Assembly: GCA_007833815.1 (NCBI GenBank)
Contig: CP033464.1
Coordinates: forward strand, 1,410,001 to 1,474,000
Source: Brevibacillus laterosporus
Lineage (GTDB): Bacteria; Bacillota; Bacilli; Brevibacillales; Brevibacillaceae
Length of the DNA stretch: 64,000 bases
Reading direction: 5' to 3'
Shown here: positions 2,899-57,824 of the stretch, in pieces
Numbering within the stretch: the stretch's first letter is position 1
Layout of the letters: each line of letters opens with the position of its first letter
The notes under the pieces: model-generated
Told to the model about the DNA's origin: nothing
Seen by the model: only the letters and a program-made list of their open reading frames with translations
Database searches by the model: none
Program-made: the position numbers and the translations under genes

Positions 2899-3453
2899 AT
2901 GAATCAGACAGAACCTCGCTCCAGATGGAAGAGAACAATTAAGGATTGGCTTACTTCCATCATAACAGTATTTATCGTTACATTTGCTTTGTACACGTGG
3001 CTGGGAGCGCCCTATGTTGTGTATGGAGAATCCATGCAAAGCACTTTGCATAATAATGAGAAAGTAGTTGTAAATAAGGCGGTTTATCGTTTGCATGAAC
3101 CACAACGAGGAGAGATTATTGTTTTTCATGCAAATCAAAAGGAGGATTATATAAAACGTGTAATTGGAATAGCAGGCGATCAGGTAGAAATGCGTAATGA
3201 TCAGCTATATATTAATGGACAGCTTGTAGAAGAGCCTTATTTAAATGAGCAAAAGACCAAAGCCCATGCAGAGGGCACAAAGGTAACGGAGGATTTTTCT
3301 CCAGTTACGGTTGAGGCAGGTCAGATTTTTGTAATGGGAGACAATAGGCAAAATAGTAAGGATAGTAGAATGATTGGCCCTGTGTCCATTAAAGAGGTCG
3401 TTGGTAGAGCTGATTTCGTTTACTGGCCACTTTCAAACTTGCGATCACCATAA
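2899..3453 (+). CDS. Type I signal peptidase (S26)
   Basis: Membrane serine protease that removes signal peptides from exported proteins on the outer face of the cytoplasmic membrane. The 184-residue length is normal for Gram-positive Sip proteins. One N-terminal membrane segment (about 17-36) precedes the catalytic Ser45 in GESMQSTL. The general-base Lys86 lies in YIKRVIGIAGD, and the C-terminal box GDNRQNSKDSR is present. The start follows AAAGGAGG. It is transcribed alone after the tRNA terminator and is distinct from the second signal peptidase at 20379-20951. Confidence 0.95.
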   Translation: MNQTEPRSRWKRTIKDWLTSIITVFIVTFALYTWLGAPYVVYGESMQSTLHNNEKVVVNKAVYRLHEPQRGEIIVFHANQKEDYIKRVIGIAGDQVEMRNDQLYINGQLVEEPYLNEQKTKAHAEGTKVTEDFSPVTVEAGQIFVMGDNRQNSKDSRMIGPVSIKEVVGRADFVYWPLSNLRSP

Positions 3454-56172: not shown

Positions 56173-56410
56173 ATGGAGAATAAGGTGGTGCCAGAACGTA
56201 TAGAGATTTCTTTGCCAGCTAAATTGGATTATGTGAGCATTGCGAGGCTTACCATTTCTGGTGTTGCCCATCGAATGGGCTTTTCTATTGATGTTCTGGA
56301 GGATTTGAAGCTTTGCGTTTCAGAAGCATGTGCTAACTCAATTCTACATGCCTATCCTGAATCTGATCGTTCGTTCTAAACCGTTACTATATGTTGTGAA
56401 CTATATACCG

Positions 56411-56506
56411 TTGAACCTCTCATGGCTAAAGCCACGAGATTCCTGCGCTATCACATCCAACGAAGTGAGAATTAGCAGGCTATCCCCGTAGTCCCTACGG
56501 TTATTG
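56411..56506 (-). ncRNA. Omega-RNA (reRNA)-like scaffold at the right end of the element
   Basis: Read on the minus strand: CCGTAGGGACTACGGGGATA, a long arm CCTGC ... GCAGG, then ATCTCGTGGCTTTAGCCATG and AGAGGTTCAA. This is the 3' structure of TnpB-associated omega RNAs of IS605 elements, whose guide begins right after TTCAA. Here that guide would start at 56410 and read antisense to rsbW. Expression is not shown, and no TnpB is encoded in this window. Confidence 0.65.
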
Positions 56507-56782
56507 AAAAAAAGTGTACGTTGGACTCTTCTCTCTGACCTACTGCTTGGTTTTCGCTTTTCGGTCAGAGAGGACGAAGGTGCTTGAATGTTTTACGCCA
56601 CAAAGCATTCCTTATGGCAACCCCATACATTCCGTTTTCAATGAGCAATCTGTACAAGATTAGTATATCTGTTCTTGTTAGTTATTCAAAGAAGTAGTCG
56701 GACAATTAACGTATCAGAAGACACGCTTTGTCCGAAGCCGATTCATCTCATGATTAAAATCACGAGTGTTCTCGGCTAATTC
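56411..56782 (-). mobile_element. 372-bp non-autonomous IS200/IS605-type element inside rsbW
   Basis: The boundaries follow from the rejoined rsbW reading. Subterminal hairpins at both ends are near-identical: CTCATGGCTAAAGCCACGAG (56419-56438) and CTCATGATTAAAATCACGAG (56747-56766), differing by two compensating base pairs. Y1 transposases recognise such hairpins. The minus-strand flank at the left end is TTTAT, a plausible target/TAM. No tnpA or tnpB remains. An inner 10-bp stem CTCTCTGACC / GGTCAGAGAG lies at 56531-56572. Confidence 0.82.
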
Positions 56783-57002
56783 ATAAATTAATTATACATG
56801 TGAGTGATAAGGGAATACAGATGGACCCAACACGGCTTACAACTTAAACGAAACACGGTACCATTGCATAAAGAGAACCTCACTCAGGGGGGACTTGGTC
56901 TATATCTGATTGAAACTCTGATGGATTCTGTAGAAATTTATCAACAAGAGGGTACCACGATCAGTATGACTAAGTATGTACAGCAAGATGAGGTGAAAAA
57001 GA

Positions 57003-57824
57003 GTGACAGAGAGCAATCGGTACGTGAAGGAACATAGGAGGGATGAAAGTCTCCTTCTCATACAAAGGTTTCAGGAGGAGCAACCTACTCCAGAGCTACA
57101 GCAAGAGCTGGTCTTGCATTTTCGTGGATTGGTAGAAAGTCTAGTCACGAAAATTCACAGTGGGTACGAATTACGGGATGATCTTAGGCAGGTGGGCATG
57201 ATCGGCTTGCTTGCAGCTCTAAGTAGATATGACCCTGCATATGGGGGAACTTTTGAAAGTTTTGCGATTCCTACTATCATTGGTGAAATGAAACGTTTTG
57301 TGAGGGATAAAACATGGAGCATACATGTACCACGGCGTTTTAAAGAGATGTCTATTCGTTTACAAAAAGCAGTGGATGATCTGACGCTAGAATTGCAAAG
57401 GTCTCCTCAGATAGAAGAAATCGCAATCTATATTCAAGCAAGTCCGGAAGAAGTTTTGGAAGCGCTTGAAATTGGAAAAAATTATCGAACCATATCTACC
57501 GATACACAAATTGAGGCCGATCAGGAAGGTGGTACCGTCACTTTATTGGATTTGATCGGTAGTCTTGAAGACGGGTACAGCCAGGTGGAAGAAAGCATGA
57601 TGCTGACCAAAATCTACAAGGTTTTAACAGGTAGAGAGCAAGAAATCATTACGCTAACCTATTTCGAGAATTTGAGCCAAAAAGAAGTAGGAGAGAGACT
57701 GCGAATATCACAGATGCATGTGTCTCGACTACAACGTCGAGCTTTACAAAAACTACGGGAATCCCTGCGAGCCAATTTAGGTGAACTTGTAAACGAAACC
57801 TTGGGGGGCTATCATACTAAATAG
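57003..57824 (+). CDS. sigB: RNA polymerase sigma-B factor
   Basis: 273 residues from GTG 57003 after GAGGTGAAAAA, overlapping the rsbW remnant by 35 bases. Region 2 (LRQVGMIGLLAALSRYDPAY, TFESFAIPTIIGEMKRFVRD), region 3 (VPRRFKEMSIRLQKAV) and region 4 (LSQKEVGERLRISQMHVSRL) are complete. Directs the general stress regulon. With RsbW broken and RsbV not seen, it is either constitutively free or held by another system (inference). Confidence 0.93.
   Translation: MTESNRYVKEHRRDESLLLIQRFQEEQPTPELQQELVLHFRGLVESLVTKIHSGYELRDDLRQVGMIGLLAALSRYDPAYGGTFESFAIPTIIGEMKRFVRDKTWSIHVPRRFKEMSIRLQKAVDDLTLELQRSPQIEEIAIYIQASPEEVLEALEIGKNYRTISTDTQIEADQEGGTVTLLDLIGSLEDGYSQVEESMMLTKIYKVLTGREQEIITLTYFENLSQKEVGERLRISQMHVSRLQRRALQKLRESLRANLGELVNETLGGYHTK

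Follow-up and report, generated by a model that had tools for sequence, protein, structure and literature searches.

In ISDra2, TnpA acts by peel-and-paste at TTGAT, and the last ~16 nucleotides (nt) of the right-end element RNA (reRNA) are flanking sequence (PMC8612924). The TnpB of an autonomous element generates its omega RNA by 5′ processing of the mRNA that encodes it (PMC10278001). Other described elements include the palindrome-associated transposable elements (PATEs) of Haloquadratum walsbyi (PMC3119063) and bcr1-bcr3 of Bacillus cereus, which resemble miniature inverted-repeat transposable elements (MITEs; PMC6542083, PMC3446304). We examined a 64,000-nt stretch of the Brevibacillus laterosporus genome (GenBank assembly GCA_007833815.1, contig CP033464.1, positions 1,410,001 to 1,474,000 of the forward strand; hereafter "the window"). 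We describe in it a 372-bp non-autonomous IS200/IS605 element without a protein gene, in which a structured RNA domain that we call R1 lies 5′ of a predicted omega RNA scaffold.

Like PATEs, the element lacks a protein gene, has near-terminal palindromes and IS605-like ends, is present in many copies, and makes no target duplication. However, the available text on PATEs (PMC3119063) mentions neither an omega RNA nor a promoter, nor any RNA domain conserved in the interior, whereas the interior of our element is a structured RNA found across many genera. The bcr1-bcr3 elements, compared with ours by description only, are likewise MITE-like, have a TTTAT motif, and reach high copy number; they often occur in transcripts, but the available parts of the two reports describe no link to TnpB or guide RNAs (PMC6542083, PMC3446304). 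As in the ISDra2 reRNA (PMC8612924), the scaffold lies at the right end, the flank would be the guide, and the target motif is the insertion motif. According to the same partial text, the ISDra2 reRNA overlaps the 3′ end of tnpB, whereas our element has no tnpB and its 5′ part is R1, behind a promoter-like sequence.

A mobile IS200/IS605 element without a protein gene

A search of the 5.76-Mb genome with a 385-base query gave 42 matches. Sixteen of these, including the window copy, cover the whole 377 bp (TTTAT plus the element) at 97-100% identity. All 16 full copies start with G directly after TTTAT and end with GGTTCAA, and their flanks are all different. Thus, with TTTAT on the left and differing flanks on the right (16/16), the copies combine subterminal hairpins with the absence of a target-site duplication, as in PATEs. 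End-only fragments of the element are also present in the genome.

In the window, the element lies on the minus strand (56411-56782), antisense within a gene that we take to be rsbW, a name that comes from the sequence and place of the gene rather than from a family search (Table 1). When the flanks are joined from 56410 to 56783, the sequence reads ...CCELYTDKLIIHVSDKG... / ...TICCELYTDKLIIHVSDKG..., and the RsbW reading is restored over the junction. The list of open reading frames (ORFs) has none of at least 50 amino acids wholly inside the element; one ORF of 53 amino acids (56330-56491) enters it. The element is a mobile, non-autonomous IS200/IS605 element with exact boundaries, an observation far beyond chance.

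A preliminary description, made from the letters of the window alone, had proposed such a passenger. The multicopy family, the TTTAT and TTCAA ends, and an IS605 with matching ends in the same genome all bear this out, and further copies and a full IS605 element, which it had proposed to look for, were found among the 42 genome matches and in the same chromosome, respectively. Its account of the ends is also correct: the two end hairpins, CTCGTGATTTTAATCATGAG and CTCGTGGCTTTAGCCATGAG, differ at four positions that make up two compensating pairs; the minus-strand 3′ end contains GGGACTACGGGGATA and a terminal GAGAGGTTCAA; and TTTAT adjoins the left end. The label "mini-element" fits insofar as this is a protein-free IS605-type element, but overlooks that the interior is a widespread structured RNA domain.

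When the 110-nt 3′ end was folded as RNA, its z score was -3.2 relative to shuffles. A repeat finder run with default settings on 56300-56900 (601 bases) reported no repeats.

The genome contains eight matches to Y1 TnpA and nine to TnpB. In one IS605 of 1797 bp, which we call P1 (C4:507050-508846), both the tnpA and the tnpB frame are open, and the same TTTAT is present. The left end of P1 is 95.6% identical to that of the element over 91 nt, and the right end is 94% identical over the last 34 nt. A second IS605 copy, P2, is also preceded by TTTAT; its tnpB is open and its tnpA broken. The scaffold stems of P1 and the element differ by paired changes (CACAG/CTGTG to CGTAG/CTACG and CCTAA/TTAGG to CCTGC/GCAGG), as expected of an RNA under selection. 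Judging from these sequences, the P1 TnpB looks cognate to the element. TnpB relatives were also found in Brevibacillus.

Parts of the element also occur elsewhere. In a plasmid collection, 386 records matched, 383 of them from Enterococcus; the Enterococcus plasmids among the matches listed share only the left end (~60 nt, 87-91% identity). A plasmid of Brevibacillus halotolerans carries a full copy at 96.6% identity, and four places in that record match. In a phage collection, two Listeria phage records matched, in the left end only. The B. laterosporus genome itself contains two solitary near-perfect palindromes, TTGAACCTCTCGTGGCTTTAGCCATGAGAGGTTCAA, without the remaining element (L044, C4:793752-793780; L045, C4:4708989-4709017), as well as two overlapping left-end pieces that are inverted relative to each other (L051, C4:1291932-1291993).

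A predicted omega RNA scaffold at the 3′ end

We built a covariance model, R2, from 26 right ends of TnpB-bearing elements only, with no mini-element in the training set. The input came from 80 TnpB-bearing loci of named records, of which 46 were listed and 30 tried; 29 had both ends, three near-duplicates were removed, and two starts were trimmed by hand. The R2 consensus consists of stem 1, a nexus stem, an inner hairpin, and the right-end hairpin, with double changes in 15 of the 21 pairs.

R2 matched the last part of the element with 88.9 bits (E 2.7e-24), spanning model positions 1-96 of 96; the second-best place in the 64 kb scored 16.1 bits. In all 16 full copies, the scaffold ends at TTCAA; the flank beyond it varies, and the target motif lies at the opposite end. 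On this model, the 3′ part of the element is an omega RNA scaffold, and R2, whose training set contained TnpB-bearing elements alone, upholds the omega-RNA-like end of the preliminary description.

A covarying RNA domain in the interior

Searches with the interior in relatives gave matches without the element ends, and a single interior match on a Bacillus arachidis plasmid led to R1, which consists of a closing stem, a P2/P2a hairpin arm, and a P3 hairpin. We aligned six sequences without fitting them to a structure (alignment A1): the window, two diverged copies from the same genome, two from Brevibacillus-family genomes, and one from the B. arachidis plasmid. Over ~150 nt, 14 of 31 predicted pairs were doubly changed. 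Cells with G-U outnumbered those with A-C by 30 to 4, in a structure that was itself chosen for pairing.

A second alignment (A2) comprised the 39 best-scoring R1 matches, from 33 genomes or records; it was fitted to the structure and is thus biased towards it. In A2, 31 of 38 pairs were doubly changed, 93.3% of cells paired compared with 69.0% in shuffles (32-44% in slid controls), and there were 306 doubly changed cells compared with 86.8 in shuffles.

The R1 model matched 55 of 399 sampled Bacilli genomes, representing 34 of 145 genera (E ≤ 0.01), and five of 40 genomes of the family. In a sample of the phylum, which overlaps the class sample, it matched 13 of 398 genomes, the B. laterosporus genome included (E ≤ 0.001). 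The interior (56513-56660) is a covarying RNA domain rather than filler and is without an Rfam counterpart. A variant of R1 is seen in L224, L227, and L230 of one genome, G027, which has 16 R1 matches; in L230, GCGAAAACCAAGC, the motif of the P3 tip, lies in the P2a arm instead of P3, and this relocation suggests that it is a functional loop.

Titles and abstract openings in the open literature, a coverage that leaves out several key papers, contained no report of R1. The studies of Altae-Tran in 2021 and Meers in 2023 reportedly dealt with stand-alone omega RNAs, with TnpB and PATEs, and with guide RNAs that do not lie beside the nuclease gene. Neither is known to describe an R1-like domain. 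The new part of the element is R1 and its position 5′ of the scaffold.

R1 is usually joined to the scaffold and separate from tnpB

In 33 of the 39 R1 loci, R1 is immediately followed at its 3′ side by an R2 match in the same orientation; that of L208 spans 239 nt. When TnpB-bearing loci were added to the search, R2 matched three (L039, L040, and L061) and did not match L063 or L064. In the phylum sample, L284, L286, L289, L290, and similar loci have R1-core-like domains, and R2 barely detects the right ends that come after these. By eye, some R1 loci of this sample show another right-end hairpin, and R1 may, from these sequences, be joined to other types of guide RNA scaffold.

Using tblastn with one query each for TnpB and TnpA of P1, from which distant relatives could escape, we obtained a single match in 87 R1 loci with flanks of up to 1.5 kb (16 loci from the B. 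laterosporus genome and 12 from G027). This match, in L248, is a TnpB-like fragment that lies outside the element on the other strand (28.7% identity, E 4e-10). Conversely, full-length R1 was found in none of 117 TnpB-bearing loci (sets of 88 and 29). Partial matches of 15-25 bits occurred in five: L162 in the set of 88 (24.9 bits) and four in the set of 29 (15.2-19.7 bits). We considered whether R1 is an integral part of tnpB elements and found this unsupported; the five partial matches are due to a coding stretch that resembles the P3 tip.

At one locus (L308, G237:C1:3086000-3090500), R1 (51.3 bits) and a scaffold (63.2 bits) are followed, on the same strand, by an open TnpB frame of 442 amino acids and a second scaffold (44.7 bits). 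Compared by eye, both scaffolds are almost identical between the nexus and the end. Among the R1 and TnpB matches listed, this is the one place where the two lie within 2 kb of each other. Since the R1 unit has its own right end, we read L308 as two adjoining elements, a putative guide RNA unit and its apparently cognate TnpB; it may alternatively be one composite element.

Promoter-like and boxA-like sequences and a motif shared with tnpB

We tabulated the sequence 5′ of R1 in 35 of the 39 loci (L042, L207, and L220 are outside the table, and L219 has no anchor). The best -10-like hexamer lies 17-25 nt before an anchor resembling TTGAAAAC in 28 of the 35.

The 5′ side of R1 has the family consensus tg.tctTTGAaaact, which we take to resemble boxA. 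The rRNA-type 14-mer TGTTCTTTGAAAAC occurs at one place in the B. laterosporus genome, just 5′ of 23S rRNA, and TGYTCTTTGAAAAC occurs once, between 5S and 23S rRNA; other rRNA operon stretches of this genome read N. At L280, the Rfam Bacillaceae-1 RNA (RF01690) lies between the boxA-like site and 23S rRNA, and 5S rRNA precedes.

In the 39 R1 sequences, GCGAAAACCAAGC, at the tip of P3, is exact in 30, and [CT]GTAAAA is present in 38. The partial R1 matches in TnpB loci correspond to the coding stretch GAAAACCAA (Glu-Asn-Gln), just before Glu-Asp-Leu codons. We found GAAAAYCAR before Glu-Asp/Asn-Leu codons in 14 of 115 TnpB-bearing loci. In 11 of these 14 (all but L271, L272, and L061), the sequence around it pairs into a stem equalled at no more than 3% of the remaining positions of that region, in a test made on related, codon-constrained genes. 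The P1 TnpB of the B. laterosporus genome lacks the motif; its codons there read KNHD. L162, one of the 14 (around position 3280), has a 17-bp stem; in these loci, the coding stretch lies within a possible tnpB mRNA hairpin and resembles the P3 tip. We regard the likeness between the P3 tip and tnpB mRNA as a lead, not as proof of descent or mimicry.

The interrupted rsbW locus

Apart from the insertion, rsbW is decayed: an in-frame TAA precedes the element, and stops and a frame change follow it. A sigB-like ORF (57003-57824) adjoins the decayed gene (56173-57016), and this strain may have an impaired sigma-B switch. Across five further genomes of the genus, at one genome per species, DNA matches to the rsbW flank were short or absent, and none could be aligned for an empty site.

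Table 1. Features of the element and its surroundings, in window coordinates
Feature	Position	Strand	Basis
rsbW 5′ part (sigma-B anti-sigma factor, presumed)	56173..56410	plus	ORF list and translation
Would-be guide of the window copy: the 20 nt that follow TTCAA, in antisense to rsbW	56391..56410	minus	Position alone, analogous to the ISDra2 reRNA
Complete non-autonomous IS200/IS605-type element (PATE/MITE-like), without a protein gene	56411..56782	minus	16 full copies, flank join
Predicted omega RNA scaffold: stem 1, nexus stem, inner hairpin, right-end hairpin, terminal TTCAA	56411..56505	minus	R2
Right-end hairpin CTCGTGGCTTTAGCCATGAG	56419..56438	minus	Sequence; RNA and DNA folds; R2 model
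R1, a conserved RNA structure with a closing stem, a P2/P2a hairpin arm, and a P3 hairpin	56513..56660	minus	Covariation, spread
Conserved GCGAAAACCAAGC motif, P3 tip	56545..56557	minus	Exact in 30/39 R1 sequences
boxA-like TGCTCATTGAAAAC, 5′ side of R1	56634..56647	minus	Family consensus
-10-like TATACT, directly upstream of R1	56662..56667	minus	Sequence and position in family
-35-like TTGAAT, 16 nt from -10	56684..56689	minus	Consensus resemblance only
Left-end hairpin CTCGTGATTTTAATCATGAG	56747..56766	minus	Sequence; DNA fold; identity to P1 left end
TTTAT, insertion target and presumed TnpB transposon-adjacent motif, left flank	56783..56787	minus	Before 16/16 full copies and IS605 P1 and P2
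rsbW 3′ part	56783..57016	plus	ORF list and translation

A candidate mobile guide RNA gene

We consider it somewhat probable that the element is a mobile, stand-alone guide RNA gene: TnpA and TnpB supplied in trans would move and read it, respectively, and R1 would be its 5′ leader. By analogy with ISDra2, a Y1 TnpA from P1 or its kin would act on the retained end hairpins and cleavage sites, peel off the strand that runs from TTTAT to TTCAA, and insert it 3′ of a new TTTAT. Transcription from the promoter-like site inside the left end would traverse R1 and the scaffold and enter the flank, which would become the guide. In this RNA, R1 would most likely be a 5′ leader in place of the body of tnpB mRNA. 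A boxA-like start is a plausible means of bringing an untranslated RNA past hairpins and Rho (for the role of boxA and Nus factors, see PMC4807359); here it would recruit NusB/S10 antitermination, and the hairpin-rich RNA would be transcribed past the right end into the flank. The P3 hairpin could be a handle for TnpB or for processing. The TnpB of an autonomous cousin would then load the processed 3′ part and cut sites, consisting of TTTAT plus flank, that the element has left, and repair after the cut would copy the element back. The analysis establishes mobility, the boundaries, a cognate-looking IS605 in the genome, scaffold homology, and the conservation, covariation, and linkage of R1; transcription, boxA function, TnpB loading, cleavage, and retention we infer. 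The preliminary description had suggested that the element may supply a guide RNA to a TnpB encoded elsewhere; this is consistent with the cognate-looking TnpB of P1 and with the co-occurrence of R1 and TnpB among Bacilli genomes.

This co-occurrence is only suggestive, since the samples differ in phylogeny. TnpB (PF01385) matches were found in 38 of 40 R1-positive and 16 of 40 R1-negative Bacilli genomes, and Y1 TnpA (PF01797) matches in 32 of 40 and 23 of 40, respectively, in two hand-picked samples (40 of the 55 positives) in which phylogeny is a confounder. These limits, together with the results that follow, weigh against a stand-alone guide RNA gene. A TnpB match is missing in two and a Y1 match in eight of the 40 R1-positive genomes. 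The 39 R1 loci are the best-scoring ones from their 33 genomes or records, and six of them have no R2 match (L195, L202, L218, L225, L228, and L231); in the G027 loci L224, L227, and L230, R2 reaches only 24.2 bits. In the 25 R1 loci of the phylum sample, R2 matched only three, with at most 16.4 bits, and the scaffold there is different or absent. Although the -10-like score was at least 5 in 21 of 35 loci, compared with a mean of 9.3 and a maximum of 16 in 200 shuffles, this test was post hoc and made on related sequences with simple base shuffles. The boxA-like motif is not universal, as a loose pattern is present in 28 and the exact TCTTTGAAAACT in 15 of the 39 R1 loci; TGCTCATTGAAAAC of the window has one mismatch to the rRNA-type pattern, and a reversed control of the pattern is equally frequent (once) in the B. 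laterosporus genome.

The comparison with known RNA families also counts here. No Rfam family reached its gathering score on the window, and eighteen loci matched nothing in Rfam except a tRNA. Within 56350-56850, the only match at E values up to 5 was to Ref70 (RF02841, an Enterococcus small RNA; 56402-56506, minus strand, 24 bits, E 0.064), which has stem 1 and the nexus in common with the scaffold and lies far under its gathering score of 115. The covariance comparison that the preliminary description had in view thus failed with Rfam and succeeded with the purpose-built R2. As Rfam also did not match the IS605 loci L039 and L061 of the same genome, its library does not cover this type of scaffold.

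The element could instead be a plain internal-deletion PATE or MITE that TnpA moves in trans, its scaffold and interior being relics without RNA function. Ends suffice for such mobility, the genome contains end-only fragments, transposase-free IS605 derivatives exist elsewhere (the Haloquadratum PATEs, in the available text of PMC3119063), and the P3 tip resembles part of some tnpB genes, a possible sign of descent from tnpB. However, the interior is a covarying RNA domain common to many genera, and the scaffold stems are kept by paired changes relative to an IS605 of the same genome and recognized at 88.9 bits by an independent model; we find this explanation unlikely. A group I intron or IStron was also considered and rejected: no Rfam intron matched on the window, and the element is antisense to the broken gene.

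Two further explanations were weighed. The RNA could be a decoy or inhibitor that titrates TnpB or blocks cleavage, so that the element spreads while its own sites stay uncut. With many copies per genome, it could outcompete the omega RNA of an IS605, and the P3 tip does resemble a tnpB mRNA stretch, but the stem test behind this likeness used related, codon-constrained genes, the cognate TnpB of the same genome lacks the motif, and the scaffold and TTCAA are intact in 16/16 full copies, so that use as a guide RNA looks possible; we judge a decoy likewise unlikely. R1 and the scaffold could also be kept as single-stranded DNA folds for transposition or regulation of TnpA rather than as RNA. 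TnpA works on single-stranded hairpins, and the 385-nt strand folds well as DNA (z -6.0 relative to shuffles). Yet TnpB-bearing relatives manage without R1 (full-length in 0/117, the five partial matches falling within the tnpB match or overlapping it), A1 contains more G-U than A-C cells, albeit in a structure chosen for pairing, and a promoter-like hexamer and an rRNA-type boxA-like motif lie at the 5′ side of R1. We consider a role as DNA quite unlikely.

It is possible, although we would stop short of calling it probable, that R1-omega elements form a widespread and so far undescribed class of mobile guide RNA genes in Bacillota. Each would have its own promoter and a dedicated 5′ RNA domain that starts with a boxA-like antitermination sequence, and together they would program a TnpB of the host or of a cousin element in trans, simultaneously from many loci, forming a dispersed and moving supply of guides similar to a CRISPR array. 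The same R1 would be found on different, TnpB-specific scaffolds, and P3 would copy a piece of tnpB mRNA that TnpB recognizes. TnpB guide RNAs are known mainly as by-products of tnpB mRNA. If our reading is correct, RNA-guided nucleases would already, prior to any CRISPR array, be served by numerous mobile guides per genome that act in trans; the separation of guide supply from the nuclease gene would become testable; and R1 would be a possible natural 5′ domain for stand-alone omega RNAs.
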